NCBI GenBank assembly: GCA_012026835.1
Contig: VEPN01000002.1
Coordinates: forward strand, 62,001 to 126,000
Reading direction: 5' to 3'
From: Candidatus Methanoperedens sp.
Lineage (GTDB): Archaea > Halobacteriota > Methanosarcinia > Methanosarcinales > Methanoperedenaceae
Length of the DNA: 64,000 bases
The notes under the pieces were generated by a model. The model searched no databases and was not told where the DNA came from. It saw only the letters and a list, made by a program, of their open reading frames with translations. The translations under genes were made by a program, and so were the position numbers. The first letter of the stretch is position 1. Each line of letters opens with the position of its first letter. Shown piece by piece: positions 2,723-62,012 of the stretch.

Positions 2723-2728
2723 ATTATT

Positions 2729-45796: not shown

Positions 45797-46492
45797 CTAC
45801 ACCTCCCGAATAAAATTTCCATGCCATGTATGATACCATACCTGTCCTGAGTAGCCATTCACATCCAGCATGCCATACATTTTGTTATCTTTCTTTACAT
45901 CAAAATGGTAATAACCATAAAACAGTCCACTATCTTCCGCCTTTGTTCCTGGGAGTCGAGAATCCAGAAACTGCTGGGCAGATGCCATTGCCTGCTCTTT
46001 TGTCAGGGTCATAGCGCCACTTGCTTGTGTGCCCATCATACCATATTTTGTGTTCCACATCATATTGGGACCCATCTCAGGAGAAACAATACCACTGTAC
46101 TTATCTATTAGCATCTGGAATGCTTTGGTTCCTGTGCTTTTCTCTTTATAGTCAGCGTAGAAGTTGAACTCCCATTCTTCCACATCCACGAGTTCAAAAT
46201 CGGGATTATTCTGGGAAGCCAGATATCTATTCGCAATATCCCTGGCTTGTTCCAGTCTGACCAGGCTACCGTTTGAATTATACGGGATGCCCCCGCTCAC
46301 AAGCATATTCCCGCCCATCATTTGCATCATAGATCCCATCATACCGCCTGAGCCACCCATCATACCTCCTCCCATCATTCCACCGCCCATCATACCATAG
46401 GTGAAACGAGAGTAACCGGAGCTGAGAACCAGTCCTAGGATGCCTACAACAATCAAAATAACGCCTAATAAAGCTAGAGTTTTCTTATCCAT
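45797..46492 (-). CDS. membrane-anchored Met-rich protein, possible metal scavenger
   Basis: A 231-residue protein. An N-terminal membrane helix (TLALLGVILIVVGILGLVL) is followed by a striking Met/Gly tract, about residues 34-63, made of GMMGGGMMGG-type units, and then by a soluble domain with two PepSY-like halves (LEQARDIANRYLAS and KEQAMASAQQFLDS). Met-rich tracts bind soft metals such as Cu(I), Ag(I) or Hg(II). It lies in the mer/metal region beside a SHOCT protein. The function is inferred from composition. Confidence 0.7.
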   Translation of the reverse strand: MDKKTLALLGVILIVVGILGLVLSSGYSRFTYGMMGGGMMGGGMMGGSGGMMGSMMQMMGGNMLVSGGIPYNSNGSLVRLEQARDIANRYLASQNNPDFELVDVEEWEFNFYADYKEKSTGTKAFQMLIDKYSGIVSPEMGPNMMWNTKYGMMGTQASGAMTLTKEQAMASAQQFLDSRLPGTKAEDSGLFYGYYHFDVKKDNKMYGMLDVNGYSGQVWYHTWHGNFIREV

Positions 46493-46531
46493 ATCTTACC
46501 TTCCGGTTCATTTCAAAACGCTTCCTTTTTT

Positions 46532-46774
46532 TTATATATCTTTCTTTTTCTCTTCGAATTCTTCTTTGCTTATCTCTCCTCTGGCGTATCTTTTCTTCAG
46601 GATCTCAAGTGCTGATTCCTGTTCCCTTTTAGCTCCACTGCTTTCCCATAGATACTTGATAAGCAGAACTAAACCTATGATTACAAGTATCGAGAATATC
46701 AGTCCGAGAATCCCCCATACTCCGTAACTCATACCATAACCGTCCATCATTCCATAAGGCATTCCAAATTGCAT
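46532..46774 (-). CDS. SHOCT-domain membrane protein (second copy)
   Basis: An 80-residue protein with a Met/Gly/Tyr-rich N terminus (GMPYGMMDGYGMSYG), one or two membrane helices and a C-terminal SHOCT motif (ALEILKKRYARGEISKEEFEEKK). It resembles the protein encoded at 36502-36798. It lies 39 bases upstream of the Met-rich protein gene and both probably form one transcript. Confidence 0.8.
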   Translation of the reverse strand: MQFGMPYGMMDGYGMSYGVWGILGLIFSILVIIGLVLLIKYLWESSGAKREQESALEILKKRYARGEISKEEFEEKKKDI

Positions 46775-47088
46775 ATTTGACCTCCACTAATAACAATTGA
46801 TTTGGCACTATAAAAAATGTTGTCTAGCAGTAACTTTTGTTTTCGAGTGCAGAGATAGAACTGAAGAAAGAGAGATCAGAATCAGCCAGGAGAAGCTTGG
46901 AACTTGTATGATCTCGAAGTCACTGGGATACGTCAAAAAAATCCCAAGTTTATTCGATTTTTAAATGCCTTTCAGCTGATGCCAGATTTTCCCCTTCGCT
47001 ATCGCTCAGGGTCGCTTCCGCTAAAATCTGGCTTTTCCAGTTTCTGAACCCTCCTCTGTAAAAATTTCCAATACAAGGAGGTAATCGA
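46775..47088. other. intergenic region at the boundary to the plus-strand element
   Basis: No gene is seen in these 314 bases. The region contains a small stem (TGGGAT...ATCCCA near 46925-46955) and the first copy of the Y-hairpin repeat family (46981-47032). It ends with a perfect ribosome binding site (AAGGAGGTAATCGA) for radC. Coding direction switches here: genes to the left are on the minus strand and all genes to the right on the plus strand. I see no tRNA or obvious attachment-site repeat that would prove an integration end. Confidence 0.6.
46981..47032 (+). repeat. hairpin repeat family, copy 1
   Basis: GCCAGATTTT (46981-46990) and AAAATCTGGC (47023-47032) form a perfect 10-bp stem identical to copy 2. 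The 32-base interior differs from copies 2 and 3. The 3' flank (CTGTAAAAATTTCCAATA) is shared with copy 2 (GTATAAAAATTCTCCAATA), so the repeat unit extends beyond the hairpin. It lies about 56 bases upstream of radC. Confidence 0.8.
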
Positions 47089-47775
47089 ATGGAAAATTGT
47101 AACATCAGAATATGCGATATGCGTAAAGACGAAAGACCCAGGAACAGATTGATCGATAAAGGCGCCAGTTCATTGAGCGACTCGGAGCTCCTGTCAATAA
47201 TCCTGAGAACGGGATCAAAGAAAGAAAACGCTATAAATCTGGCTCAACGGATTCTTTCACAATACAGCCCCAAAGAGTTGTCCCGGATAGACGTATACCA
47301 GCTAATGAAAATCAACGGGATTAAGCAGAGCAAAGCCTGCCAGATTGCGGCTGTCTTTGAAATCGCCCGCAGGCTTGAAGCCTTCACTGAGGATGCAAAG
47401 GCGAAGATAAACTCTCCGGAAGATGTTTACAGGCGATTGTATCCATATATGAGGGAGGCGAAAAGGGAGACATTCATTGAATTGAGCCTGGATACAAAGA
47501 ATCAGATTATCCGGGAAGATACAATATCGATAGGGTCACTGAACGCCAATATAGTTCATCCCAGAGAGGTTTTTAAAGTAGCGTTGATGCAGTCAGCAGC
47601 GCATATCATAGTTGCACATAACCATCCTTCTGGGGATCCTGTGCCGAGTAGAGAGGATATAGAAATAACAAAGAAACTGGTCGAGACTGGAAAGATAATT
47701 GGCATAGATGTACTCGACCATGTGATCATTGGTGATGGCCGTCATTTCAGCATGAAGGAAGCCGGGCATATTTAG
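47089..47775 (+). CDS. radC: RadC-type JAB-domain protein
   Basis: A 228-residue protein. A helix-hairpin-helix segment (LMKINGIKQSKACQIAAVFEIARRL) precedes the JAB/MPN domain with the metal motif AHNHPSGDPVPSREDIE. RadC proteins are common on plasmids and integrative elements; no repair role has been firmly shown. JAB metalloproteases elsewhere remove ubiquitin-like tags, which matters here because a ThiF-type E1 gene is on the same element (62860-63447). The start has an excellent ribosome binding site (AAGGAGGT). Confidence 0.92.
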   Translation: MENCNIRICDMRKDERPRNRLIDKGASSLSDSELLSIILRTGSKKENAINLAQRILSQYSPKELSRIDVYQLMKINGIKQSKACQIAAVFEIARRLEAFTEDAKAKINSPEDVYRRLYPYMREAKRETFIELSLDTKNQIIREDTISIGSLNANIVHPREVFKVALMQSAAHIIVAHNHPSGDPVPSREDIEITKKLVETGKIIGIDVLDHVIIGDGRHFSMKEAGHI

Positions 47776-47783
47776 GAGGAGAC

Positions 47784-48182
47784 ATGACAAAAAGAACAAA
47801 AAATATACCTCATATCCTGAAGATTCCATGGATTTCTCTTGAGAGTGCTGAAGCAGAAGTACGTCATATAATTGTAAACAAACAGGAGTTCTATGCGATA
47901 TCCTATGCAGGAAACCTTCTCTTCACGCCAGAAGATATCCATGCAGCACAGCTTCGTTTTAATAGCTACCCGAACATCGAAAAGACCTGGCCTGTATGGA
48001 TATTATCAGAGTCAGATATTAAAGGTGTAGCCAAACAGTTCGGATTGGATATAGAAGGGTTAGACCCGGGCCTTATAGTTCATCATTTCAAGAAGGGGTT
48101 CATGCCATTGATAGATTCCTGGGATGAAGTTGTCAAGGGAGCTATCGAACAGGCCAAGATAGAGCAGCTAATCCACGAATAA
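47784..48182 (+). CDS. unrecognised 132-residue protein
   Basis: I do not recognise this gene. It starts 8 bases after radC behind AGGAGGAG. The sequence is a mix of beta-like (HIIVNKQEFYAISYAGNLLFT) and helical (EDIHAAQLRFNSYP, WDEVVKGAIEQAKIEQL) segments without cysteine clusters or membrane helices. It is sandwiched between radC and the methylase-helicase gene and so is probably co-expressed with them. Confidence 0.7.
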   Translation: MTKRTKNIPHILKIPWISLESAEAEVRHIIVNKQEFYAISYAGNLLFTPEDIHAAQLRFNSYPNIEKTWPVWILSESDIKGVAKQFGLDIEGLDPGLIVHHFKKGFMPLIDSWDEVVKGAIEQAKIEQLIHE

Positions 48183-48194
48183 GCAGAGGGGACT

Positions 48195-51100
48195 ATGGCG
48201 ACACAACTTACTCTTGCGTTATTTGAGAATATCGACTCGGTACGACAAGAGACAATCGATGCCACGGATGTGGTTAAGCCGGTGCATGAATTATCGAAAA
48301 CTTCTGGTATACCCAAAGAGAATTTCATTGAACTTCCAGGATTATTCCCCGCGGATTTCAATTCCCGGATAGTAGACGACCCGATGCTCGAAATTGATGA
48401 TTTCGATCCGAGACAAATCCCATTCGACATTCAGGGAGATCCAAATGAAGAGTTCTGGCGAGCAGTCAAAGAAGGGATGATAGATCGCGAGAAGATATTC
48501 TATGAATACAAGTCCCTGGGGCAGACCGTAACGATAGAAGGGAATAGGGGAATTCCAGACCTAGCGAAAAAGAGGGCACTCAATTTCCAGCAGCATTTCA
48601 CACCGCCAATAATAGCGAGATTCCTGGCCCAGGCATTGAGGCTTGATGTACCGGGAACGCCGGCATCAGTTGTTGATAACAGCTGCGGAATAGGCAGAAT
48701 GTTCCAGTTCCTGAACCCATCCTGCGACCTGGTGGGAATTGAAGTGGAAGAGAAAGCATATCACATGGCAAGGACCCTTTTCCCGAAGGCTAACATCATC
48801 AATGACGACCTGATAAATCACCCAAGAATAATGGCAGACTGCTTCATCATCAACCCTCCTTTCTCAATACAGTTAGAAAAGAAGAACTGTGGGTTCACAA
48901 ACGCAGGATGGGGCGACCTTGGACCCGGGACGAGCATAAAGTCGCACATAGCTGCTATGGAAACTGCCATTGAAAGTGCCAGATACTTTGTGGCAGCTAT
49001 GCTCCCTGCAGGCTACTTTGTTAATGAAGAAACGCTCACCTTTGAGAGATGGGTGAATCAGAGAGCCAAGCTTGCGTACAGACTGGATATAGATCAAAAA
49101 GCGTTCACCAAGCACGGATTTACCTGGCCATGCTCTCTAGTGATCTACAGTAAAGAACGTCTTGATGGCCTCTGCTTGATTCATCATCAAACAGAGACTC
49201 TTGATGAAGCCTTCCTGGCCCATGAGCTTGAAATATTGCGGGAATCGGAGGCAGGAAAAGCAATAGAGAAAGCTGCTGAGCATATAAGAAAAAGAGGACC
49301 TACACATTTCTTTATACCGAAAAAATGCAAGCCTGAACAAGTATGTGAACCATGCATAACATTACCATTATCAGGCACGAATCGGGTGAAGATATGCCTA
49401 TCTCCTGATGCAAGCTGCCTCAATTTAAAGGTAGATAATGTTCTCGCTGCCCTGAAAGTACATGAGTTCAGGAAATCTCTGGGCCATGAATGGAATGATG
49501 GATTGAAAGAATATATAGAACTTGCTGACGTAATGCTCAGAAGGAGAAACCTGCTTGAAGATCCTCACACCCTTCCAGGGATGTGGGAAAGCCTTCGCCG
49601 CGCTAATTTAATGCCTGTGATTGATCCCCAGTTTGCGAACTGGGTCGTAAAGAAGAAGAAATGGCTGGAAAGACAGCAGGCACCTTTTGAGCAGTTCATC
49701 AAAGGGAAAGACGGGCAGTGGATATGCCTTCACAAAGATGACGGCATCAAGTCTCTTTATCCAGAACTATATCAAGAAAGATTGAAGAGATTAGAAATAT
49801 TAAGCATCGACTGGCTATGGCCGTTCCAGAAAGAGGATGTTGCCAGGATGAGCTTGAAAAACACGACTCTGCTTGCCGATCAAATGGGACTGGGGAAGTG
49901 CCTTCTACCGGATACCATGGTTTATATCGATGGTATATTGATGGCAATAGGAGAGGTTTGGGATAGATATCATACGGAGATACATTTTGATGGAGTGGGC
50001 TACTGGAGCATCCCCAGCAAGAGGTTATATACGAATTCTATCGACCCTAACGGCAGGATAGTGAGATCACAAATAGAGATGTTGTATAAACAGGAGATCG
50101 ATGAAAAGATAAGAACGGTTGTTCTTGCAGATGGTTCAGAGGTTTCATCGACGCTCTCTCATAAATTCTTATGCCCGGATGGATGGAGTAACGAAATCGG
50201 TAAATATGTATGTGTCCCTGCCAGGCTACTGCAACATGGCTATAAATCAATGAATAAAGACATAGTTTCATTCATCGCATGGCAAATAGCAGAGGGGTAT
50301 GAGCGCAATAGAGAGAGTCCAAATAATAAATACAGACACGAGGTAGATATCACCCAGAAAGATGTCAGCGTGCTTCTAACACTGAAGGAGAAGTTCAAGG
50401 CATTTGGTCTCGATTTCGCACCAAAGATAACAATACCAAAGGATGGGCACGCTCCACATTTGATGGTTATTCGTAGAGAGTATAGAGATTATGTCGAAAG
50501 GCTTGGATATGTTTGGGGGTTGCCATCGAGTAAGAAGACAATACCCAAGTTCATACAAGAATTAAATAATGATTGCATAGCAGTCTTTCTTCAGAGTTAC
50601 TTCGATGCAGAAAGTTGCCCGGTACTTTCGATGCGCTCCATTGAAATAACAACCGCATCTGAAGAATTGATCAATCAATTGTCTATGCTACTCAGAAGGT
50701 TCGGAATATGGCTACGAATCAAAAGGAAGATGAAGTGCGCGACTAATGGGCATAGAATAAAGAGACCATATTGGATAGGAGTCATTGGTGGCAACGGATT
50801 ACGCTTATTTAAGAAGCATATAGGCTATTCGATAAAGAAGAAACAAGAAATACTAGAAATAATCTGCGAAAAAAAGTCTAACACCAACATAGAAGGTATT
50901 CCGGCATCTAGTATCGTAAGAGATGTTTATGAGAAGACTGGATTATCACTCGAATCATTGGGTATGGCTTCAGATGTATATGTGAATGGTACCCAAGAGT
51001 TCTCAAGAGAGAGTCTCCAGAAAGTGATAGATAACTTAGACAGAATTCTTAGCGCAGAAGAAATCGAAATAGTTATGCAGAACCCTAGGGCTTCGCGAAG

Positions 51101-52772
51101 ACGCAAAGAAGTATTTGAGAAAATCGATATGAACTATGTGGAATCTGTGAGGAATAGGCTTGCGGAGTTGATGAAGAGGGAGGTCTTTTATGCAAGAGTG
51201 AAGTCAGTGGAGCTAAAGGATTACTCGGGACCAGTTTATGATCTCACAGTTAAAGAGCATCATAATTTCGTGGCCAATGGCTGTATATGTCACAACACAA
51301 GACAAATAATCGCGCTGGGCTTGCTCTATGGTTGCAGGCACAATCTGATAATCGTAGAGCCGAAATTAAAGGACGAGTTCGTTAAAGAGTTTAAAACCAT
51401 CGGAATAACAGACTATCAAATAATAACCGATGAAAAGCATCTCAAGAGCCTGAAAAAGTTCAATCTTATAGCTTATAACTTGCTATGGCGCCCTCTAAAT
51501 GGATTGACAAAGAAAACCTTCGCAAAGGCAATGAGAAGGAGATTCCAGTTCATAGCCATCGATGAGGCTCACAAGATCAAGGCGAAAGACAGCGAGCAGG
51601 CAAAAGCTGTTAGAATTTTGAAGGCCAGATATAAGTTACTATCAACAGGTACGCCGATAGCCAACTATCCCAGGAATATATTCAGCCTCCTGGTTTTTGG
51701 ATGGGGAGATGCCACCGAACGCAACCATTACGGCTACTATGGCCCAATAGAGAAAGTGGATGAACGCGGTCATCAGAGAGGCTACACTACAGGCACGCGC
51801 CAGTTCAAAGAAGATTTTGTTAGCATTGAGTGGGTGACGCCACAATTCGCACAAACTCTAGACACTGGGGCCAAATCGCGGGAAATTCCAAAGATCAAAG
51901 ACCCTGAAAAATGGTGGGCTATGATGTGCAGCAAGATTGTTAGACGCCAGAGGGATGAACCTGAGGTAAAAGCGCACATAACCTTCCCCAAACCTGAGAT
52001 CAGAACAGAACTTATCAAAATGTCGCCTGAGCATATCAGGCATTATAAGCACTGGCTTGACAACTTTGCAGGATGGTTCAAAGAACAGTTAAGGATGGAG
52101 AAGGAGGAAGGCCACAAGATCGATCAGATGATGGTCCTTGCACACCTCACTCAACTTCAATTCGCTTCAACTATCCCGCAATCGCCAAAGACCAATACGA
52201 AAGACGCACCGTGGTCGTTTGGCCCGACAACTAAACAGCAGAGGACAGTAGAGCTCATAAAGGAAGCAATAGCCAGAGAAGAAAAGATAATTGTCTTCTC
52301 TGAAAGACCTGAGTTCCAGAGATTCGTCCGGGAGATCCTTCATACTAAGCATGGCGTAAAGTCTCATCTGTTCATCGGACAGCAGGGAATTAAAGAGCGC
52401 AATATTCTTCTGAATGATTTCAGGAATAACGGGACAAACGTGCTCCTCGCAACAACATCGTGCGGTGAGGTTGGCCTGAACATTCCGGAAGCAAACGTGG
52501 TTGTTCTCGCTGACACTTCATGGACTCCGAGCAAACAGATCCAGGCGTATAGTAGGATACTCAGACCACAGCAGAAGAAAAAGCCCAAGATTTTCCTATT
52601 GAGAGCAGTCGGGACCATAGATGAATACATGTCTCAGCTTATGGCAGCCAAAAGCGAAGCCATTGATGAAGGTATTGATTACCAGGAGGCAGCCGCGTTC
52701 GATGCGAGCAAATGGCTGAGCTACAAGGATTTCACTATCAAGATGTTGAGAAGCGAGGGGTATGCTCTATGA
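48195..52772 (+). CDS. N6-adenine DNA methylase-SNF2 helicase fusion, interrupted by an intein
   Basis: A 1525-residue precursor. Residues 130-330 are a methyltransferase domain with FTPPII, SAM motif DNSCGIGR (161-168) and catalytic NPPF (220-223). From about 540 a SNF2-like helicase begins; its Walker A (DQMGLGK, then TRQII) is split by a 466-residue intein. Beyond the intein come DEAHKIKAKD (motif II), LLSTGTPIAN (III), and the second RecA domain with LLATTSCGEVGLN (V) and QAYSRILRPQQ (VI). The mature protein would have about 1059 residues. Methylase-helicase fusions of this kind are typical of plasmids and ICEs. It may protect, remodel or restrict DNA; no nuclease domain is visible. Confidence 0.9.
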   Translation: MATQLTLALFENIDSVRQETIDATDVVKPVHELSKTSGIPKENFIELPGLFPADFNSRIVDDPMLEIDDFDPRQIPFDIQGDPNEEFWRAVKEGMIDREKIFYEYKSLGQTVTIEGNRGIPDLAKKRALNFQQHFTPPIIARFLAQALRLDVPGTPASVVDNSCGIGRMFQFLNPSCDLVGIEVEEKAYHMARTLFPKANIINDDLINHPRIMADCFIINPPFSIQLEKKNCGFTNAGWGDLGPGTSIKSHIAAMETAIESARYFVAAMLPAGYFVNEETLTFERWVNQRAKLAYRLDIDQKAFTKHGFTWPCSLVIYSKERLDGLCLIHHQTETLDEAFLAHELEILRESEAGKAIEKAAEHIRKRGPTHFFIPKKCKPEQVCEPCITLPLSGTNRVKICLSPDASCLNLKVDNVLAALKVHEFRKSLGHEWNDGLKEYIELADVMLRRRNLLEDPHTLPGMWESLRRANLMPVIDPQFANWVVKKKKWLERQQAPFEQFIKGKDGQWICLHKDDGIKSLYPELYQERLKRLEILSIDWLWPFQKEDVARMSLKNTTLLADQMGLGKCLLPDTMVYIDGILMAIGEVWDRYHTEIHFDGVGYWSIPSKRLYTNSIDPNGRIVRSQIEMLYKQEIDEKIRTVVLADGSEVSSTLSHKFLCPDGWSNEIGKYVCVPARLLQHGYKSMNKDIVSFIAWQIAEGYERNRESPNNKYRHEVDITQKDVSVLLTLKEKFKAFGLDFAPKITIPKDGHAPHLMVIRREYRDYVERLGYVWGLPSSKKTIPKFIQELNNDCIAVFLQSYFDAESCPVLSMRSIEITTASEELINQLSMLLRRFGIWLRIKRKMKCATNGHRIKRPYWIGVIGGNGLRLFKKHIGYSIKKKQEILEIICEKKSNTNIEGIPASSIVRDVYEKTGLSLESLGMASDVYVNGTQEFSRESLQKVIDNLDRILSAEEIEIVMQNPRASRRRKEVFEKIDMNYVESVRNRLAELMKREVFYARVKSVELKDYSGPVYDLTVKEHHNFVANGCICHNTRQIIALGLLYGCRHNLIIVEPKLKDEFVKEFKTIGITDYQIITDEKHLKSLKKFNLIAYNLLWRPLNGLTKKTFAKAMRRRFQFIAIDEAHKIKAKDSEQAKAVRILKARYKLLSTGTPIANYPRNIFSLLVFGWGDATERNHYGYYGPIEKVDERGHQRGYTTGTRQFKEDFVSIEWVTPQFAQTLDTGAKSREIPKIKDPEKWWAMMCSKIVRRQRDEPEVKAHITFPKPEIRTELIKMSPEHIRHYKHWLDNFAGWFKEQLRMEKEEGHKIDQMMVLAHLTQLQFASTIPQSPKTNTKDAPWSFGPTTKQQRTVELIKEAIAREEKIIVFSERPEFQRFVREILHTKHGVKSHLFIGQQGIKERNILLNDFRNNGTNVLLATTSCGEVGLNIPEANVVVLADTSWTPSKQIQAYSRILRPQQKKKPKIFLLRAVGTIDEYMSQLMAAKSEAIDEGIDYQEAAAFDASKWLSYKDFTIKMLRSEGYAL
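49899..51296 (+). other. intein with LAGLIDADG endonuclease inside the helicase Walker A
   Basis: It begins at Cys (CLLPDTMVYIDG, block A) directly after GLGK, has the block B motif TLSHKFLC, and ends with HHNFVANGCICHN (blocks F/G, terminal His-Asn) before the Thr of the extein. This gives 466 residues and an intact set of splicing residues. The endonuclease part shows two DOD-like motifs, FIAWQIAEGYE and FLQSYFDAES; the first has Glu in place of the catalytic Asp, so cutting activity may be altered. Splicing restores the ATP-binding loop exactly. Confidence 0.92.
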
Positions 52773-52915
52773 ATCACAATATAATCATCCCGCCGGTCAG
52801 AGTATTATACACAGATGCCTATAATATTGCGTTTTTCAAGAAAAAGAAAGATGCCAAAAGGTTCGCAAGGACGAAGAGACTGTCAAAGATAGAGATAGAG
52901 GGAGAAGATATATGA
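52769..52915 (+). CDS. 48-residue basic protein
   Basis: The ATG overlaps the stop of the helicase gene (ATGA) and the end overlaps the next gene in the same way, a tightly coupled arrangement. The protein is short and rich in lysine and arginine (FFKKKKDAKRFARTKRL) with no known motif. It may bind nucleic acid or the helicase. An in-frame earlier start at 52712 would lie deep in the helicase gene and is less likely. Confidence 0.6.
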   Translation: MNHNIIIPPVRVLYTDAYNIAFFKKKKDAKRFARTKRLSKIEIEGEDI

Positions 52916-53472
52916 TAGAAATAAAGAACGGAAGGATATATTTCTACAACACGCTAAAGCCTGATCTCATGGTCTTGGACTTCAAATGCCTGTCGGCATA
53001 TGTGTGCCCGGCATGCAAGAATGTCCTTCGCGCGTACTTTGTGGGATCTATAATACCGGAATCGTTAAAAGAATACATGGAAAAAGACACCATGAAGTAC
53101 GCCTACGAGATGGGGAATACCCAGGGAGCACAGTGGTTAGCTCTGCGTGACCATTCCCATAAGGAATGCTGCAGATGGGAGGTAGTTGGTGCTATGTCAA
53201 AAGGGATAGAGAACTCGGTAAAGTCCTTTATCGAGATACATAACATCAAGATAAAGGATACACAAGCGCTGATGACCGCCATAGGAACAGACAAAATGCC
53301 CGGGTTCAAGCGAGTGTTTGACGAGACCGGGGCAGACTTACCCATGTTGCTTTTCAAAGAGAGCGATCTTCTCAATACGGCAGGCATGACGTTCGAGAAG
53401 AAGTGGGAATTGTTAAGAGACCTCAGCAAAACTATAGATTCAGTATTGAGAAGCATAGGCATGCATAATTAA
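52912..53472 (+). CDS. unrecognised 186-residue protein with cysteine pairs
   Basis: I do not recognise this gene. It has one zinc-knuckle-like CPACKNV near residue 33 and a HKECCRW further on, both in the N-terminal half. The C-terminal half is helical. It overlaps the 48-residue gene by 4 bases. Shortly after its stop lies copy 2 of the hairpin repeat, which may end this transcript. Confidence 0.65.
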   Translation: MIEIKNGRIYFYNTLKPDLMVLDFKCLSAYVCPACKNVLRAYFVGSIIPESLKEYMEKDTMKYAYEMGNTQGAQWLALRDHSHKECCRWEVVGAMSKGIENSVKSFIEIHNIKIKDTQALMTAIGTDKMPGFKRVFDETGADLPMLLFKESDLLNTAGMTFEKKWELLRDLSKTIDSVLRSIGMHN

Positions 53473-53482
53473 CACCGTTGGT

Positions 53483-53532
53483 GCCAGATTTTTCCTCGCT
53501 TCGCGAGGTCGGGCACAGCCCTAAAATCTGGC
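53483..53532 (+). repeat. Y-shaped hairpin repeat, copy 2
   Basis: Fifty bases fold completely: outer stem GCCAGATTTT/AAAATCTGGC, arm 1 CCTCGC-TTC-GCGAGG, arm 2 GGGC-ACA-GCCC, joined by single bases T, TC and T. Copy 3 at 54476 has the same length and arms, and a paired double change in the outer stem. A 9-base direct repeat CGTTGGTGC lies at 53476-53484 and 53562-53570. It sits between the 186-residue gene and the DUF1848 gene. Confidence 0.88.
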
Positions 53533-53605
53533 GTTGCCAGTATAAAAATTCTCCAATAGAGCGTTGGTGCTCTGTATAAAGAATTGTTCAACTCGGAGAA
53601 ATACC

Positions 53606-54466
53606 ATGACATATAAAAGACAGACCAAAATAATATCAGTATCGCGCAGAACGGATATACCAGCCTTCCACGGAGAGAGGTTCATGCAAGACCTGCACTC
53701 AGGATACGCTAAATACACGCAGTATTTTGGCAATGAGAGCAAAGTATCTCTCAAAAAGGAAGATGTTGCCTGTTTTGTTTTCTGGTCAAAGGATTATACA
53801 CAGTTCCTGGGAAGCCTTCATGAGATGCTTGAGTCCGGATATCGCTCATACTTTAATTACACGCTGACAAACCTACCATCTGCTTTTGAGACGAACGTGG
53901 ATCATGATAGAGCATTAAAAGCTCTGAGGGTGATGAGCAGGATGTACTCGCCAGCCCACATTAACTGGCGCTACGACCCTATTGTTCTTTCAAGCATTAC
54001 TGATTATGACTGGCAGATAAACAACTTCAAAGACCTATGTTCTAAACTCAAGGGCTATGTCAATCGTTGTTACTTCAACTTCCCGGTTTACTATGGTAAG
54101 GTGCAGGTAAATCTCAACATCTTCACTAAAAAGACCGGAATAAAAGTAATTAATCCAGACAATGAGACAAAGACCAAGCTAATTACAGCCTTCGTTGATA
54201 TCGCAAAGGAAAACGGCATACAGTTATTCTCCTGCGCAGAGTCACATGGATACAGCCCGGACGTCCGGCCCACTCATTGCATTGATGCTGCGATAATCAA
54301 CCAGCTTTATCACATCAATGATCTCCCAGGGTATAAAGCGTCAAGACAGGGATGCGGGTGCACGCAAAGCACGGATATTGGCTCATACAATACGTGCAAC
54401 CACGGATGCATCTATTGTTACGCCAATACAAGTTCAACCACAATTAAACAACAGGCTCTAAAGTAA
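53606..54466 (+). CDS. DUF1848 family protein
   Basis: The ATG at 53606 follows CGGAGAAATACC, giving 286 residues. The start KIISVSRRTDIPAFHGERF is the signature of DUF1848, a family related to radical SAM photoproduct-lyase-like barrels. The C terminus carries clustered cysteines (GCGCTQSTDIGSYNTCNHG followed by CIYCYAN), likely an Fe-S or metal site. Its biochemical role is unknown. The gene stands alone between two near-identical Y-hairpin repeats (copies 2 and 3), unlike its operon-organised neighbours, and may be a separately acquired cassette. Confidence 0.82.
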   Translation: MTYKRQTKIISVSRRTDIPAFHGERFMQDLHSGYAKYTQYFGNESKVSLKKEDVACFVFWSKDYTQFLGSLHEMLESGYRSYFNYTLTNLPSAFETNVDHDRALKALRVMSRMYSPAHINWRYDPIVLSSITDYDWQINNFKDLCSKLKGYVNRCYFNFPVYYGKVQVNLNIFTKKTGIKVINPDNETKTKLITAFVDIAKENGIQLFSCAESHGYSPDVRPTHCIDAAIINQLYHINDLPGYKASRQGCGCTQSTDIGSYNTCNHGCIYCYANTSSTTIKQQALK

Positions 54467-54475
54467 TGCCGCTGT

Positions 54476-54525
54476 GCCGAATTTTCCCTCGCTACGCGAG
54501 GTCGGGCACAGCCCTAAAATTCGGC
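54476..54525 (+). repeat. Y-shaped hairpin repeat, copy 3
   Basis: Same 50-base plan as copy 2: outer stem GCCGAATTTT/AAAATTCGGC, arm 1 CCTCGC-TAC-GCGAGG, arm 2 GGGC-ACA-GCCC. Relative to copy 2, AG became GA on one side of the stem and CT became TC on the other, so pairing is preserved. It begins 9 bases after the DUF1848 stop, and the 3' flank (TTTTTCAGTTTCAAAAATTC) resembles that of copies 1 and 2. Confidence 0.88.
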
Positions 54526-54576
54526 TTTTTCAGTTTCAAAAATTCATGATTGAGCATAAGCTCTCAAATATAGAAG

Positions 54577-55437
54577 GTGATTTATACGGAACAACAGATA
54601 GAAGAGAAACCATCGAGAGCAGAAATGATAGCTTTTTTGCGTGGTCATTTCCGCTACTACACAATGAACTCGTGGAACCGGGCAAAGAGTTATGCAAGGA
54701 ATGTGAAAATCCATAACCTCAACCTGACAAGAGAGCAGCGGTCAAGGGCATATAACATAGTTTATGCCGAGGATGCCTACACCGAAATAAATGAACGGAT
54801 AAGGATGTTTGATGAAGAGCACGATTACAGGTATCAGGCATCGTTCAACGGCAGAAGCAACGGGTACATTGTATTGCTACAGGGTGGCAAGCAGGAAAGC
54901 GGATACCAGTCATTCTGTACCAGATGCGGCCAGATGAACTATAAGAAAGTCGCACCAGTAGCAGCAACACCAGAAGATCACGTCAGGAATTTCATCAGAA
55001 ATAAGAACTGGTGGATACCAGAGGTTTACCCGGATATAGAAGAAATAAAGGTTCACGGCCTGCCAGTTGAACGGGTCATAGAAATCGTCAAAGAAGTCAA
55101 GGCAGAGAAGACAGAGTACACACTGGACGATATATGCGGAAGATGCGATAAGCACGGACGGGTGAACTTCGATAAACCGCATATGAGAATATACACCCAG
55201 GGAACAGGCATGGATATGGACGCGGACTTCGAGAATGATGATGAGTGGTCGTGGTCTGATCTAAAAAACAGGTATGATCTCGTCAAGTCGTTTGATAAGA
55301 TGGTAGATGACTGCATTGAGATCTTCAAAGCTCTCTGTGACAGCTTCGAGGCTATTGAAGAGGAAGTGCCCTGCGTTCGCAAAGCCGTAGTTCTGAGACC
55401 GATAGAGAAAAAGGAAGATGTAGAGGCTACGGGATGA
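54577..55437 (+). CDS. unrecognised 286-residue protein with two zinc-knuckle pairs
   Basis: I do not recognise this gene. CTRCGQ (about residue 114) and CGRCDKHG (about residue 190) could together bind zinc; between them is a charged helical region with EEIKVHGLPVERVIEIVKEVK. The start is uncertain: GTG at 54577 is the only codon upstream of an internal ATG at 54625, and GGTGATTTA, used as ribosome binding site elsewhere in this element, overlaps it. The stop overlaps the next gene (ATGA). It heads a run of seven tightly packed orphan genes. Confidence 0.62.
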   Translation: MIYTEQQIEEKPSRAEMIAFLRGHFRYYTMNSWNRAKSYARNVKIHNLNLTREQRSRAYNIVYAEDAYTEINERIRMFDEEHDYRYQASFNGRSNGYIVLLQGGKQESGYQSFCTRCGQMNYKKVAPVAATPEDHVRNFIRNKNWWIPEVYPDIEEIKVHGLPVERVIEIVKEVKAEKTEYTLDDICGRCDKHGRVNFDKPHMRIYTQGTGMDMDADFENDDEWSWSDLKNRYDLVKSFDKMVDDCIEIFKALCDSFEAIEEEVPCVRKAVVLRPIEKKEDVEATG

Positions 55438-55970
55438 CAAAAAGACAGTTTGCATCAGGAGCAAAGGTGATGGTCAAAGGTACAAAAGAGACCGGCACTA
55501 TCCTGGGGGTTGACAGGGAAACGAACCGCGGATATATCGAGTATTCAGTGAGGCTCGATAATCCTGAAAGATTCCAAGTGATACCTGAGAAACAGATGTT
55601 CGAGGTAAAGGAAATCGGGGACAGAATAGTGACGTATCCAATGCCCGGAGATCTCGTCATGATAGAAAACAGTCATGACACCCTGATAGCCAACTTCTCA
55701 TACGGGATCATCGAAGGAATAATCGGTGAACCGCAAGATGAGTACCTTGTATGCTTCAATGCTTATTCAACATTCAGGGATACCAGCGTCAGCGCGTCAG
55801 GTGGCCCTGCTTACATGATCCATGCAAAGAACCTGGTTGATGCAAAAATAGCAAGGGATTGGTTCTTCTGGAAGTGGAAAGACATGCCGAGAGCAGGCGG
55901 CGGCGTGCCGTTCAAAGAGACATGCAGGATATGGTTCTTCGATGCGAGCAAGAGAGGGGGAGCGCAGTAA
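55434..55970 (+). CDS. unrecognised 178-residue beta-rich protein
   Basis: I do not recognise this gene. It is coupled to the gene before it by an ATGA overlap. The N-terminal part (GAKVMVKGTKETGTILGVDRETN and IVTYPMPGDLVMIEN) suggests small beta-barrel, KOW/SH3-like strands; the C-terminal part is rich in tryptophan and phenylalanine (DWFFWKWKDMP). No cysteine cluster or membrane segment is present. Confidence 0.62.
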   Translation: MTKRQFASGAKVMVKGTKETGTILGVDRETNRGYIEYSVRLDNPERFQVIPEKQMFEVKEIGDRIVTYPMPGDLVMIENSHDTLIANFSYGIIEGIIGEPQDEYLVCFNAYSTFRDTSVSASGGPAYMIHAKNLVDAKIARDWFFWKWKDMPRAGGGVPFKETCRIWFFDASKRGGAQ

Positions 55971-56313
55971 GATAATCACAAAGAAGGAACTAAAGAAAAG
56001 AACAGTGACATGCCCCGGATGCGGTAACGTCATCGAAGTGCCAGATCCATGGATGAAATATGACATCGGGTGCAGGGAATGTGGAGAAGAGGCGAGAGTT
56101 CCGGATCTTCCTCTGACAGAATTGTTCGATGTAGATATCTGGGCAGAGAGAGACAGGCTGAGAATATGGGTAACGGATAGGCAGAAAGATAAAGTTGTCT
56201 TCGAGGTCTGGGATGACGATGCAAGGCAGCTTTTCGATGATGGATTCCTGAGACCAGGTGATGAGTTGAAGGAATCTGTATTGGAGTATTTAAAAGAAAC
56301 AAAGGTGATTTAA
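55942..56313 (+). CDS. zinc-ribbon protein, 123 residues
   Basis: The protein has a zinc ribbon (TCPGCGNVIEVP near residue 22 and IGCRECGEEARVP near residue 42) and a basic N terminus (KIITKKELKKRTV). It overlaps the previous gene by 29 bases if the ATG at 55942 is used. A strong GGGGGAG lies later, at about 55957, so the start is uncertain. It is followed directly by the next gene. Zinc ribbons of this type bind nucleic acid or protein partners; no specific role is evident. Confidence 0.6.
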   Translation: MRAREGERSKIITKKELKKRTVTCPGCGNVIEVPDPWMKYDIGCRECGEEARVPDLPLTELFDVDIWAERDRLRIWVTDRQKDKVVFEVWDDDARQLFDDGFLRPGDELKESVLEYLKETKVI

Positions 56314-56886
56314 ATGGTAGGTGAAGACTCAAATATACAGAAAACGCGAACCACGGCGTTAAAAGTAATTGTGGATGAGCAGCTGGTAAATGATGTGAAC
56401 AAAACCCGAGAGTTCATGTCCAAATTGTTTGACATGCCTAAGCTCATGGAGAAGAAGGAGGTCATAAAGAGAACGTGCCTTGTCAAGAATGGAGAAAGGC
56501 AGTTCGAGGTAGCGATCGATTCTGCATTTGCAGAGACAATGATCGCAGCCGGTCTTGACCTGTCAAAAATTCCGGGCTTCAAGGAAGTGCCAGACACGAG
56601 GTATGTTCATGAATTGTACACATCAGGATACCACATACAGAAGCTCATTGGAATAACCGATGGAACGGATATAAATTATGAATTCACAAGCAGCATGGTC
56701 AAGAACGATGTAAAGATATTCTACATACTGTTCAGCCTGAAAACAAGTGGCAGGACGAAGACAGAGATCAAGGGGAAGCATAAAGAGAATGTTTCAAAAC
56801 TCTTGCATTTCCTGAGAATGAATGCCATACCCGTGATATACGATTGTGAATGGAAGTTCACGGGGAACCGGGCATGTCAGCTGTAA
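56314..56886 (+). CDS. unrecognised 190-residue protein
   Basis: I do not recognise this gene. GGTGATTTAA precedes the ATG and the gene abuts its predecessor. A predicted helical N-terminal half (VDEQLVNDVNKTREFMSKLFDMPKLM) is followed by a beta-rich domain (TRYVHELYTSGYHIQKLI and VKIFYILFSLKTSG). It contains only three cysteines, none clustered. The end overlaps the next gene by 13 bases. Confidence 0.62.
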   Translation: MVGEDSNIQKTRTTALKVIVDEQLVNDVNKTREFMSKLFDMPKLMEKKEVIKRTCLVKNGERQFEVAIDSAFAETMIAAGLDLSKIPGFKEVPDTRYVHELYTSGYHIQKLIGITDGTDINYEFTSSMVKNDVKIFYILFSLKTSGRTKTEIKGKHKENVSKLLHFLRMNAIPVIYDCEWKFTGNRACQL

Positions 56887-57128
56887 AATGGAAGGTTCTT
56901 ATGGCATCACCTGAACCAGAGGTCGTAATAGTGGTTGAAGGCGGCGTTGTGACAGCAGTGGCAACCAGGGGCCCAGGATTTCCGTATAGGATAATAGACA
57001 TCGATGCAATCAAATGCGGAGACCGGAGTTCCGGAGAGGATTGCGAGCCAGACGCCACGGGAATAGACGTTGAAGAATATTCAAAGGACATCATAGAAGA
57101 TGTAAAGAATGATACGGAGGGCAAGTAA
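56874..57128 (+). CDS. 84-residue plasmid-type small protein with EGGVV motif
   Basis: The ATG at 56874 lies shortly after CGGGGAACC and gives 84 residues. The central strand-turn EVVIVVEGGVVTAVAT followed by YRIIDIDAI is a pattern seen in small unnamed proteins of bacterial plasmids and ICEs, where this little beta domain recurs near helicase and methylase genes. The tail is acidic. I recall no assigned function. It overlaps the previous gene and ends two bases before the next. Confidence 0.62.
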   Translation: MSAVKWKVLMASPEPEVVIVVEGGVVTAVATRGPGFPYRIIDIDAIKCGDRSSGEDCEPDATGIDVEEYSKDIIEDVKNDTEGK

Positions 57129-57130
57129 TC

Positions 57131-57571
57131 ATGGATCTCTTCATATGCAGTCATTGTGGAGCCAACCTGATCGAATGTGGAATAACAGAAGTAACAGTCG
57201 GCGGCGTCGGAAAGATGGACATCAGTTTCGCGAAGAATGGTTCCGAGAAGGAAATCAAATTTGGGGACATTGATGTACATGATTTCGATGACCAGTGGGT
57301 AGTATGTGCCTTATGCGGAGCAGAGTTACACGACAGAACGGCGATAGAGATAATCGAGGCTTTCAGGGATGGCCTTCCTCATATCAGAAATGAATGCAGC
57401 GAGTGTGGAAAAACATTCGGAGAAAACATATGTGATGGATGCGGGATGAGAGCAGGCCAGTGTACAGGAGTCCGCGTGGATAATGACCTGTGCCAAGAAT
57501 GTTGCATGGAAGAGTTCAAGTGCACAACACTGATAAATCCAGTGGCCTTCGTAGCATCGGAGTCATCATGA
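57131..57571 (+). CDS. cysteine-rich zinc-ribbon protein, 146 residues
   Basis: At least four CxxC-type knuckles are present: ICSHCGANL, VCALCGAEL, CSECGKTFG with CDGCGM, and CQECCMEEFKC. It could hold two or three zinc ions. The middle region is beta-rich (VGGVGKMDISFAKNG). It is coupled to the following gene by an ATGA overlap at 57568. The role is unknown; it is the most cysteine-dense of the small proteins in this run. Confidence 0.65.
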   Translation: MDLFICSHCGANLIECGITEVTVGGVGKMDISFAKNGSEKEIKFGDIDVHDFDDQWVVCALCGAELHDRTAIEIIEAFRDGLPHIRNECSECGKTFGENICDGCGMRAGQCTGVRVDNDLCQECCMEEFKCTTLINPVAFVASESS

Positions 57572-57939
57572 GCAGAAAGGCTTTAATTGCGGTCGATGTC
57601 GGTGATGGGTGGGACCCTTTAATTGATGGAGATATTCTCCAAATGCTCAAAGAGAATGAAGAAGGCAATGGCATCAAAGTAACCAGTTTATCCATGTTGA
57701 ATGAAGCGTGTATAATGGATATACTTATGAGACATGGAGAATTGCTGACCTGTTTTAACTGTGGGAAGAGACTCACTGAAACAGAAGGCAGCAGGATACA
57801 CAAACATGGGAAGGACAGGCTCATAGCAAAACTAATCCTTGAACCGGGTGAAGTGAACTATCCACGAGAGCCAGATATACCGGCGAGCCTTTACTTTGTG
57901 TGTGCCGAATGCTCAGGGGAGAACACACAGACCGAATAG
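57568..57939 (+). CDS. unrecognised 123-residue protein with two CxxC sites
   Basis: The ATG overlaps the previous stop (ATGA). Cysteine pairs are CFNCGKRL near residue 63 and CAECSGEN near the C terminus. No family is recognised. It ends the run of co-directional orphan genes; after it comes a 104-base gap with strongly self-complementary sequence before the Ku gene. Confidence 0.62.
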   Translation: MSRKALIAVDVGDGWDPLIDGDILQMLKENEEGNGIKVTSLSMLNEACIMDILMRHGELLTCFNCGKRLTETEGSRIHKHGKDRLIAKLILEPGEVNYPREPDIPASLYFVCAECSGENTQTE

Positions 57940-57954
57940 GTATTTTAGAGTAAT

Positions 57955-58013
57955 TCGATAGCTGTTGTTAGATTGTTAAATTGATTGAGCTTCAGCTATC
58001 GACAATCAAACAA
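57955..58013 (+). promoter_or_regulatory. two mutually exclusive hairpins upstream of the Ku-ligase genes
   Basis: Stem A pairs TCGATAGCTG (57955-57964) with CAGCTATCGA (57993-58002), ten perfect pairs. Stem B pairs TTGTTAGATTGT (57965-57976) with ACAATCAAACAA (58002-58013), eleven of twelve. The order A-B-A'-B' with no spacer between A and B means both stems are unlikely to form together. The Ku gene starts 31 bases downstream behind ATCGGAGG. This could be a switch, attenuator or protein-binding site. Confidence 0.6.
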
Positions 58014-58043
58014 AGTTAGAATAAAATCGGAGGAATACAAGAT

Positions 58044-58844
58044 ATGACAAGAGCAGTGCTATCAGCCAACATACGGTTTGGCTTAATAAATGTAGCTGTG
58101 AAGCTGCATAAAGCGAATAAAGATGGCGATGTTCATTTTAAGAATGTCCATGCCGTATGCCACAGCCCAATTAATCAGAAGAAATGGTGCAACAAGTGCA
58201 ATAAAGAAGTGTTAGCGACAGAACTCGATAAGGGATTTGTCCTGGCAAAAGACAAGATAATCGAGTTCTCGGATATAGAGCTTGAAGCCATTGCAACCGC
58301 AGAAAGCAAGCACGTAATCATAGAGAAAGCGATTGATATTGCAGAAATCCCATTAACAGCATTTGACTCGTTTTACTTCCTGCAGCCAGACAAGTACGCT
58401 GAACATGCATACTCACTCATGGCAAAGGTTCTCGCAGTAAAGAACCAGGTCTTGGTAGGGAGAATAATAATGAGAAGCAAAGAACATCTCGCAGCAATCC
58501 AGTCCTTTAACGGCGGGCTGCTTCTCTCGACTCTCCACTGGCATGATGAATTATACAGCGTGGCGCCTCTCCTGGAAGCGCTTGAAACAATCCCGGATGA
58601 AGAGTTGATACTCGCCAGTATGCTGCTTGACAGGATGCATGCTCCTTTCAACCATGAATTGTTCAAAGATACATACAGGGACAAAGTGCTTGAAGTGGTT
58701 GAGAAGAAAGCAAAAGGTGAGCTGATAACCATCACTGAGATAAAGACAGAGATCCCGAAGCAAACTGACATGATGGCAGAGCTGAGGCGCAGTCTTGAGA
58801 TCCCCTGTGCGATTCAGACGGGACAGACGGCAACGAAGGCGTAA
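58044..58844 (+). CDS. ku: Ku protein (NHEJ DNA-end-binding)
   Basis: A 266-residue bacterial-type Ku. The start SANIRFGLINVAVKLHKA and FKNVHAVCHSPINQKKWC match the family's beta-barrel, DKGFVLAKDKIIEFSDIELE is the central signature, and DSFYFLQPDKYAEHAYSLM the next. It forms a homodimeric ring on double-strand breaks and recruits the ligase. The C-terminal extension is short and not strongly basic. The ligase gene follows 21 bases later. Archaeal NHEJ of this type is known from Methanocella; here it is on a plasmid-like segment. Confidence 0.92.
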   Translation: MTRAVLSANIRFGLINVAVKLHKANKDGDVHFKNVHAVCHSPINQKKWCNKCNKEVLATELDKGFVLAKDKIIEFSDIELEAIATAESKHVIIEKAIDIAEIPLTAFDSFYFLQPDKYAEHAYSLMAKVLAVKNQVLVGRIIMRSKEHLAAIQSFNGGLLLSTLHWHDELYSVAPLLEALETIPDEELILASMLLDRMHAPFNHELFKDTYRDKVLEVVEKKAKGELITITEIKTEIPKQTDMMAELRRSLEIPCAIQTGQTATKA

Positions 58845-58865
58845 GAAGGCAGGGAGGATTCAAAT

Positions 58866-59840
58866 ATGCAACAGTGCTGTCTTCCACTCGAGAAAAAGCC
58901 AAGAGAATACAACTTTGTTGAGGTTCTGCCTACAACAGAGTCGATCCTGAATAAACCAGGACTGATATTTCAGAGAAAGTTTGATGGAGTTAGCGCGGAG
59001 GTAATCGCTGAAGGTGATTTAAGGATAGTCGGCAAGGGCATTACCAGGGGAAGGCTGAGTGATTATACCTTGAAGTTCCCTGAGCTTATGGAGGATTTAA
59101 AGAAGCTCAACCTCCCGGATGGCACTGATTTCCTTCCTGAAATAGTGGTAATCGACAATGAAACCGGAATGGAGAACCTTTCATTAGTTCAGGCCCGGAC
59201 AGGCAGAGAGAGTAATGTAAGTCTCTACTCAAAGCTGTATCCTGCGGTAATGATAATACATGACGTAGTTTCCGTTGGCCGCAGGGACGTTACAGGTGAG
59301 AATTATTTAGCAAGGGCAGACGCTCTCAAACCATTGGTGGCCGGGAAAAGCAACAAGATATTCTTTATCGGCAGCAGCACGGATGGGAGAGCAGAATGGG
59401 AACGGGTTCAGAGATTAAAGTTTGAAGGGATCATAGCCCGTGACCCGAAAGCTGCTTTAGGTCGTGGCGTCTGGAAACTCAAGAGGGAACTGAGTGAAGA
59501 TGTGTTTTGTATCGGTGAATTTACTCCCTCAATATCGGATACCCTTTCGATCTTTGAATATGAGGTCGGCGGCCATAAGAAGACTGGACTCTTCGCTAAC
59601 CTGGTATGTTATCAGCTGACTTCCACAGGCAGCATATTCCATGTTTGTGATGTTGGTGGCGGCTTTTCAATGCAGGACAGGGTAGCTATCCAGAAGATGC
59701 TTGACCTCGGCCAGATATCGAAGGATAAGCCACTGGTACTCGAAGTGAAAGCAAACGCCAGGTTCGAAGATGGCAAGAGCTCAGGCATAATACATTCTTG
59801 CGTATCCGGAATGATAAAACATGGAACCAGTGCATTGTAA
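58866..59840 (+). CDS. ATP-dependent DNA ligase (LigD ligase-domain type)
   Basis: A 324-residue ligase. The adenylation site is QRKFDGVSAEV (motif I, catalytic lysine), with LPEIVVID (III), FEGIIARDP (IV) and WKLKR (V) in order, and a C-terminal OB-fold. It lacks the N-terminal DNA-binding domain of replicative ligases and the polymerase and phosphoesterase domains of full LigD, so it is the stand-alone NHEJ form. It pairs with the Ku gene directly upstream. No separate LigD polymerase is visible in the window. GGAGG precedes the start. Confidence 0.88.
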   Translation: MQQCCLPLEKKPREYNFVEVLPTTESILNKPGLIFQRKFDGVSAEVIAEGDLRIVGKGITRGRLSDYTLKFPELMEDLKKLNLPDGTDFLPEIVVIDNETGMENLSLVQARTGRESNVSLYSKLYPAVMIIHDVVSVGRRDVTGENYLARADALKPLVAGKSNKIFFIGSSTDGRAEWERVQRLKFEGIIARDPKAALGRGVWKLKRELSEDVFCIGEFTPSISDTLSIFEYEVGGHKKTGLFANLVCYQLTSTGSIFHVCDVGGGFSMQDRVAIQKMLDLGQISKDKPLVLEVKANARFEDGKSSGIIHSCVSGMIKHGTSAL

Positions 59841-59855
59841 AAGAGGTGATTTAGG

Positions 59856-62012
59856 ATGGATATCAATGCTCTGAGAGTATTTGATGCGCTGCATAGCCTC
59901 GGTATAACCGAGGCTGAGTTCGCTGACCTGGAGAATGAACAGAAAGCCACGGATAAGACGGGCCTGTATATCCGGTGCATAAGATCTGGCTATTTCATAG
60001 GCGTCAGCCATGACGAGAATCATAAGATATTGATAAAGGACTGCAAGAAAGAGTTTCCCACACCAGGCAGGGTTCTTTTCAAGACCCTGATAACCTTTGA
60101 TGAGTTGCCAGAGGAAATATACACCCTCCATGCAATAGCTCAGTATAAGTCCCTGGATACTGATATGAAGGCCAGAGCCGATAACCTTGAAGAACTTAAA
60201 GACAGGATATGTGACAGGTTCGTTAATAACTTCCCCAGGGAACTTGGGCGCTTCTATGACGATGTTCATTATCAGGAATTACACTCTTATGATGAACAGA
60301 AGAGAGCTTCATGGGGAGAGCTGAAGACAAAGCTCATTGACAGGCAGCTACGGGCTCTTTTCTGGCTTTTCGGTGATGATTACGATAAGTTTGAAAGAGA
60401 GGTAAAGCCGGCGCGAAAGAACATCCCCAGGATCATAAAAGTCTTCGAGAGGAATAATAGAAGGATGGCTGTTATCCAGCGCTTTGATGATTATGATAAG
60501 CGCAGAGGTGGGATGATGTATAATCCTGCCTGGTATGAGAAAGTACAGGGCAATGCATTGATGATCGCCTGCTTCAAGCCAGGCAATCCTCAATACAACT
60601 ACGTGGACCTCAATAGAGAAATGTATCTACCCAACGGCACTGACGAAACGGCTGAAATATGGCTGGGTAATGATCTCTATGAGAAGACAGAGTTTCCGGA
60701 ACTGAAAGTATTGTCCAGGAGACTCTTTGCAGACAAGGAAAATAATGACGGTGCTCGTAATCGGTGGGTGCTTCTTACAGCTGATGTGTTCAACAGGAAA
60801 CAAACGCTCCTAAGAATCGAAGTGATGAGCGCAAAAAGACAGCATGAGGAAGAGGAGACAAGAAAAAAGCTGGCAAAGTCGGTAGATGACCAATTCAAAA
60901 AGGGAAAGGTTGTCAGGCAGGGCATTACATTCACGAAGAACAGCATAGAATGTGAAGGCATCCTGGTCAAAAACGATAAGTTAGGCGGTTTCGTGATGCG
61001 TAACCAGATTCATCTCCAGATGGAACCGGAGTTCTCAAAGATCGTTAAGGACTTCATAATCTACGCATTGAATATTCAGGCAGTCTGGAGCAACTATTCT
61101 TCAGATGTGAATTATGTATGCAATTTCACCGGTGATGAGAAAATACAGATCGGAAAAGTGAGCCTGCATATAGAGAGCAGGAAGCATAATATTTTTGTGA
61201 ACGACCGCAGGATAGCGAAAAATGACCTTGTGGATGTCATCTTCACCGCTATGTTTCACAGGAATCAGAAAGACTTCGATCAGTATCTCGCATACAGTTC
61301 AAGGGTTAATCTGGCTCTGCAAAAGGCTCTTTCAGACGGTGGAATATCATTTGAATTGAAGATAGACAAGACAAATGATAACTCACTCCCCATAAATGAA
61401 GAGAGAATGGTCCTGTCGCTCCCGTTGTTCAGGGAGAAGAACAAGAACTTCACTACAATAAACGGAGTGAATTATCAGATACAGGACTTGAACGCGTTCT
61501 TTGATATTGGAAAGGATATCAACAGCGCAAGAATAGGGTATGGAGGTGGCGGTTATCTTCAGAGGACAATCAAGCTGCTATACAGATCCATCAAGGGAAT
61601 CACGCCAAAAGAGATAGGCGAGATAATAAAGAACGGCGAGCAGGAATATACAAAGCTCCAGGAAAAGATACGCAAGGAGAACGCTGCTAGGTTAAAGAAG
61701 GCAAACGGGTTCCTGGCTGAAGCAGTGAGGCTCAGCAAGGCCAAGAAGATCAAGAATGGTTTCACAATAATCGGCAAAAGCGGGAAACCATACACCATCA
61801 ACTCAGAAACCCTCGCTGTTTATGATGTAGCGAAAGGCAGCCCGGGAAGATATGTTTGCATAGTGGATATGGGAACATCTCTTGATACGGATTGGGGCAG
61901 GAAGGATGCACTTGCGAAGCGGCTCCTGATGTTAGCACATGACCTGAAGGTAGCAGATGAGGTCCATACACTTGAATTAAGGGAGGCATTAGATTCAGGA
62001 ATGGTGATATAA
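59856..62012 (+). CDS. large orphan protein, 718 residues
   Basis: I do not recognise this protein. GAGGTGATTTAGG precedes the ATG. There are no membrane helices or cysteine clusters. A basic coiled coil lies near residues 590-640 (YTKLQEKIRKENAARLKKA). The C-terminal domain (GFTIIGKSGKPYTINSETLAVYDV, then GRYVCIVDMGTSLDTDW and DALAKRLLMLAHDLKVADEVHTL) looks like a discrete fold. The N-terminal half has LYIRCIRSGYFIGVSHDENHK and many charged helices. It is between the NHEJ ligase and a ThiF-type gene, which hints at DNA maintenance or a protein-modification system, but nothing in the sequence proves it. Confidence 0.75.
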   Translation: MDINALRVFDALHSLGITEAEFADLENEQKATDKTGLYIRCIRSGYFIGVSHDENHKILIKDCKKEFPTPGRVLFKTLITFDELPEEIYTLHAIAQYKSLDTDMKARADNLEELKDRICDRFVNNFPRELGRFYDDVHYQELHSYDEQKRASWGELKTKLIDRQLRALFWLFGDDYDKFEREVKPARKNIPRIIKVFERNNRRMAVIQRFDDYDKRRGGMMYNPAWYEKVQGNALMIACFKPGNPQYNYVDLNREMYLPNGTDETAEIWLGNDLYEKTEFPELKVLSRRLFADKENNDGARNRWVLLTADVFNRKQTLLRIEVMSAKRQHEEEETRKKLAKSVDDQFKKGKVVRQGITFTKNSIECEGILVKNDKLGGFVMRNQIHLQMEPEFSKIVKDFIIYALNIQAVWSNYSSDVNYVCNFTGDEKIQIGKVSLHIESRKHNIFVNDRRIAKNDLVDVIFTAMFHRNQKDFDQYLAYSSRVNLALQKALSDGGISFELKIDKTNDNSLPINEERMVLSLPLFREKNKNFTTINGVNYQIQDLNAFFDIGKDINSARIGYGGGGYLQRTIKLLYRSIKGITPKEIGEIIKNGEQEYTKLQEKIRKENAARLKKANGFLAEAVRLSKAKKIKNGFTIIGKSGKPYTINSETLAVYDVAKGSPGRYVCIVDMGTSLDTDWGRKDALAKRLLMLAHDLKVADEVHTLELREALDSGMVI

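Follow-up and report, generated by a model that had tools for sequence, protein, structure and literature searches.

Genes and repeat copies at the locus

The window, a stretch of 64,000 nucleotides, belongs to a 3.3 Mb genome of the genus Methanoperedens and lies on a contig (C31) with genes of chromosomal type, as judged by its list of open reading frames. An island at about 109.0-127.4 kb of this contig encodes RadC, a SNF2-type helicase interrupted by an intein, DUF1848, Ku, an ATP-dependent ligase and a tyrosine integrase. All window features located in the following lie on the plus strand. The radC gene, a mobile-element paralogue (47089-47775; Pfam RadC 2.3e-45, NCBIfam RadC 1e-75), is followed by the helicase gene (48195-52772), assigned to the HMp-plasmid backbone based on Pfam domains and comparison with HMp; its presumed N-terminal methylase is taken from the published HMp ORF5. 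The helicase intein has a LAGLIDADG domain, and the corresponding aligned stretch is absent in genomes G003 and G017. Further along come the DUF1848 gene (53606-54466; Pfam DUF1848 1e-75), a 286-aa gene with an uncertain start codon and no Pfam match (54577-55437), an NHEJ-like pair (58044-59840) in which Ku protein is joined by an ATP-dependent DNA ligase and which belongs to the same mobile element, and a 718-aa backbone gene (59856-62012).

As far as the part of the published HMp plasmid description considered here goes, the HMp region of Methanoperedens comprises RepA/RPA, a helicase with N6 methylase, ThiF and RadC, the backbone genes being the same as in the window island (PMC9674854). 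Because the gene neighbourhood of the island matches that of these plasmids, the island probably represents an integrated HMp-like element. Directly behind its tyrosine integrase lies a CRISPR array with the repeat CTTTCAATCCTCATTTTATAAGGATACATTCTGAAAT (G000:C31:127440-129600; about 1440-3620 of locus L007), and putative cas-like ORFs are found further past the array.

Three copies of a Y-shaped element stand among these genes. Copies c2 (53477-53544; 53483-53532 in narrower limits) and c3 (54471-54537; narrower 54476-54525) are direct repeats with 84% identity over 68 nt, and the chance expectation for their common 33-nt core in the window is 0. The Y, a 10-bp stem with two arms, is complete in both, with folding energies of -25.4 kcal/mol for c2 and -24.8 kcal/mol for c3 (z -4.8 and -5.0). 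Their outer stems read GCCAGATTTT/AAAATCTGGC versus GCCGAATTTT/AAAATTCGGC, two pairs differing on both sides. Two statements of the earlier note, that both copies fold completely into a three-way junction and that their outer stems changed in a compensatory manner, are thus borne out, with z about -4.9 for the fold. A third copy, c1 (46975-47044, core 46981-47032), forms the same Y with other arms (z -3.1) and has orthologues in G003, G017, G023, G011 and G012. The junction linkers N / TC / T are identical in all three copies.

Each copy is followed by the remainder of a gene leader. In the radC leader behind c1 (47045-47088), a CCTCCTCTGTA/TACAAGGAGG hairpin is predicted over the SD (P paired 0.99; equalled by 1.5% of shuffles). 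Leader folding gives a second hairpin, AGAGC..GCTCT, ahead of DUF1848 (53545-53605), and the sequence of the leader of ORF 54577 (54538-54576) contains a GAGC..GCTC hairpin. A gap of 5 nt separates c2 from the stop codon of the gene ahead of it, and about 40 nt lie between c3 and the start of the following gene, so DUF1848 sits within a co-directional gene run and is not the isolated gene described previously.

A family of structured elements in Methanoperedens

Two covariance models were built, R1 from 11 type-A copies and R2 from eight type-B copies (types as defined below). The window copies are type A and score 88.2 (c1), 57.7 (c2) and 56.1 bits (c3) with R1; c3 is also matched by the independent type-B model R2 (E 0.002). 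Across 31 genomes of the genus, covariance-model searches recovered about 45 copies in roughly half of the genomes, counted by hand with chance-judged matches excluded. Such a covariance-model search of Methanoperedens genomes had been proposed beforehand, on the view that a lack of further covarying copies would count against the note's idea of a cassette; many more covarying copies were found.

The copies fall into three subtypes, A and B with two arms each and a third with a single arm, and share a general shape: the stem folds back, has a 1x1 mismatch 5-6 bp below its top and bears one or two arms. Type A has the stem GCCAGATTTT/AAAATCYGGC and two arms, and type B has arms of the same pattern on the stem TGATAA.A.GGCTT/AAGCC.A.TTATCA, with the variants TGATGA.A.GGTTT/AAACC.A.TCATCA in G016 and GACTT/AAGTC in G017. 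The one-arm type reads AGATTTC-GCAC-TGCG-GTGC-T-GAAATCT, and many of its loops are C(UGCG)G, of UNCG type; in one-arm copies ahead of RPA genes of three genomes, the one-arm top rests on a base of entirely different sequence, GGGGGGTGA/TCAACCCCCC. In most copies, the outer stem extends past the internal loop to GYTG/CAGT. Although trained on type B alone, R2 recovers the leaders of RPA genes in addition to c3.

In type B, 20/20 pairs are kept with 100% of cells paired, and seven pairs show two-sided changes (0/500 shuffles as high). The one-arm type has three two-sided pairs (0/500 shuffles). For type A, the covariation score was reached in 0/500 shuffles and the number of two-sided pairs was equalled in 45/500, which makes this type alone the weaker case; its outer-stem pairs are nearly invariant, and sequence constraint therefore contributes there. 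Taken over the three types, this covariation means that selection on the folded structure, as claimed in the earlier note, is well supported by the sequences.

Outside the genus, the element was not encountered. In 186 genomes from 27 genera of the order, R2 matches were confined to Methanoperedens, and R1 gave a single match in the other genera, which reads as T-rich chance and not as a convincing copy. For lineages beyond the order, one exact DNA pattern searched in genome contigs returned two matches, both from Methanoperedens. Rfam (E<=1; window 30000-64000 and 15 loci) gave nothing at the Y elements, a viral contig collection contained no match to the DUF1848 protein or to four DNA patterns, and BLAST against plasmids and phages yielded nothing relevant (four Rhizobium matches of 27-29 nt were judged chance). 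The Y family is a real structured element, previously undescribed as far as Rfam and the searched papers show. On inspection, the weak matches G000_C97, G002_C44, G006, G014, G016_C22, G013_C218 and G173 were judged to be coding or chance, and G016:C6:4509 is doubtful.

Placement ahead of genes of mobile elements

A co-oriented, SD-led start lies within 150 nt of 38/44 copies (median 44.5), whereas five have such a start in the opposite direction; the elements are sense-oriented and mostly 30-110 nt ahead of the start codon. The same genes recur behind different subtypes. In front of radC stands type A in six genomes (G000, G003, G017, G011, G012, G023), the one-arm type in four (G013, G041, G043, G012) and type B in G016; RPA genes follow either type B or a one-arm variant. 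Homologues of the 718-aa gene stand directly behind a Y element in G017 and G041. Elements also stand ahead of DUF1848, a 445-aa gene (G003:C22), members of the helicase operon, a small ORF that itself precedes a DUF932-like gene, and genes of unknown identity. Gene linkage and structure thus persist while the sequence is replaced.

As a paralogue control, R1 and R2 were run on 30 radC and 30 RPA loci, using the one locus returned for each genome. An element was found at 4/30 radC loci (G000, G003, G017, G012) and 5/30 RPA loci (the same four genomes and G016), all on contigs of mobile-element type. The other loci carried 0 elements; most of them are presumably chromosomal paralogues, with identities of about 75% (radC) and about 48% (RPA). 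Judged by these predicted neighbours, the element marks genes, not cassette ends.

A proposed structured leader RNA

With moderate confidence, we propose that the Y element acts as a cis-acting structured 5'-leader or intercistronic RNA of HMp-like mobile elements, free or integrated, which would coordinate establishment and repair genes. It has the features expected of a cis-regulatory leader RNA, namely a covarying fold, a fixed orientation and related genes downstream. Among the possibilities listed in the earlier note, a structured RNA fares best. Short gaps between co-directional genes hold c2, c3 and other copies, which have no TATA box of their own; read-through RNA should therefore contain them. 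On the sense strand, the extension stem makes use of G-U pairs; overall, 23 G-U and 11 A-C cells were counted, an imbalance due mostly to two pairs, and the stem pair at columns 10:60 leans the opposite way. UNCG-type loops can be read as a sign of RNA because UUCG loops pointed to RNA in the reasoning on STAXI (PMC2864571). The TATA-less spacing, the G-U of the extension stem and the UNCG loops may each be taken as signs of RNA, weak when considered alone.

Mechanistically, the element would work within the mRNA, either at its 5' terminus or in an intercistronic stretch, by offering a common factor a site for binding or processing. This factor could be encoded by the mobile element itself, one candidate being RPA, which would then regulate itself as well as its partners, so that replication, repair and establishment genes would rise and fall together with the state of the element. 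Translation, mRNA stability and transcription are candidates for the affected step. Among specific mechanisms, general SD masking was rejected, as mean SD pairing was 0.63 in 31 leaders versus 0.63 in shuffles; masking is present in some radC and DUF932 leaders only. A core promoter at a fixed TATA distance was likewise discarded, none being common among the copies.

Relation to known systems

The radC RNA motif (RF01754) is presumably a leader RNA associated with radC genes. It is listed for Proteobacteria, and the Y element gave no match to its model at E<=1 in window 30000-64000 and 15 loci. The STAXI element is a structured element located close to genes that encode ssDNA-binding, antirestriction and other DNA-handling proteins, for which RNA and ssDNA have both been discussed (Weinberg et al. 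2010, PMC2864571). Similarly, Y elements stand by RPA, with its OB fold, and RadC, and a tyrosine integrase lies at the island end. However, STAXI consists of pseudoknots in tandem two or three times, whereas Y copies are single nested fold-backs found in Methanoperedens only, and we do not count them as STAXI. Frpo/ssi are fold-back DNA elements upstream of SSB and anti-defence genes in the leading regions of conjugative plasmids, Frpo directly upstream of SSB (PMC11541004). The Y element also folds as a single strand ahead of early or SSB-type genes. Frpo/ssi mimics a bacterial -10/-35 promoter; inspection of the Y stems showed no evident TATA/BRE, and upstream of the elements there is no conserved TATA at a fixed distance. 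In gene company, the Y family resembles both STAXI and Frpo. The part of the HMp plasmid description considered here mentions repeats only around Orc1, and not the Y element (PMC9674854).

The family would provide a genus-wide regulatory signature for the little understood plasmids and integrated elements of methane-oxidising archaea, and it tells mobile radC and RPA copies from chromosomal ones. With it, a STAXI-like pattern, in which folded elements stand by ssDNA-binding and antirestriction-type genes, would reach into archaea, and it makes the question of RNA versus ssDNA testable.

Alternative explanations

An ssDNA signal is an unlikely alternative to a leader RNA, and yet the foremost one: the strand would fold during transfer or replication and serve as a promoter (Frpo/ssi-like), a priming site or a protein-loading site for early genes, among them that of the ssDNA-binding protein of the element itself. 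The company of SSB-like RPA, RadC and methylase/helicase resembles bacterial leading regions, most copies are without a TATA box at a fixed distance, and the window copies fold slightly better as minus strand. Copies also share one orientation within each contig, but this is not independent evidence because the surrounding genes are mostly co-directional anyway. Against such a signal, no relaxase or transfer gene is among the genes identified beside the window elements, inspection of the stem gave no evident TATA/BRE box, and no ssDNA promoter in archaea was found described in the literature searched. The A-C mismatch of the type-A stem, considered as a minus-strand sign, was dropped, as A-A, A-G and T-C also occur at that position. 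That the elements are the first archaeal ssDNA control signals, which would fold upon transfer or unwinding and switch on RPA, RadC and other establishment genes ahead of second-strand synthesis, is a bolder version to which we assign a distinctly low probability.

A transcription terminator or RNA-processing hairpin of the upstream gene, one of the options raised earlier, is improbable. Several copies start 2-37 nt past the upstream stop codon and a T run such as GGCTTTTTCAG follows the stem, but this run is short, and c1 and several others have no close same-strand upstream gene. Terminators are disfavoured above all because the constant partner across genomes and subtypes is the downstream gene.

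A mobile-cassette boundary or attC-like recombination site with DUF1848 as the cassette, an idea raised in the earlier note, is a remote alternative. The part that stood comes from one comparison, with and without DUF1848, in G017 (BLZ2). There, a single element lies between homologues of genes 52912 and 59856, as opposed to element-DUF1848-element in the window, and DUF1848 was not found anywhere in the genome. The locus also lacks the 5.25-kb Ku/ligase stretch, the leader being joined directly to the homologue of gene 59856. This leader resembles that of c3 (77%) more than that of c2 (61%), the left flank is that of c2, and the element is about equally close to both. Recombination of a c2-like with a c3-like leader and gain of a leader-plus-gene unit both fit this state, and ordinary homologous recombination between two similar leaders accounts for it. 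The remainder of the cassette idea did not hold. About 40 other copies, nearly all of the remainder, are single and precede unrelated genes of the backbone, and the ends of the 5.25-kb stretch missing in G017 fall outside the element. Integron attC sites carry the boxes RYYYAAC/GTTRRRY, with one site per gene cassette beside an integron integrase; these boxes were not seen in the outer stems GCCAGATTTT/AAAATCTGGC and TGATAA/TTATCA. Four further Methanoperedens genomes have DUF1848 homologues (49-51% identity) and no element, and DUF1848 is therefore one cargo gene among many, which came or went with one copy. As copies are mostly single and DUF1848 occurs element-free, the element is better regarded as a leader or regulatory part travelling with genes.

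Equally remote is a double-stranded operator, an inverted repeat for a DNA-binding regulator: the half-sites GATGCCAGATTT / AAATCYGGC are conserved in type A and the one-arm type, but the distance between them ranges from about 12 to 37 nt and shows no helical phasing, arm pairing is kept by compensatory change, and the half-sites are wholly replaced in type B and the one-arm RPA copies with pairing kept.

Further observations at loci with elements

At G023:C117 (L058/L039), the radC gene behind the element contains in-frame stop codons while the element is intact, and this radC may be decaying. Contig G000:C86 has two Y elements and a primase-polymerase gene, and its positions 46317-62603 form a single ORF of 5428 aa. 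On the same contig, a HEARO RNA (RF02033, 112 bits; 327-550 of locus L079) has an IscB-like ORF as its neighbour and is located behind a type-A element, where it seems to be an insertion into the downstream gene of that element.
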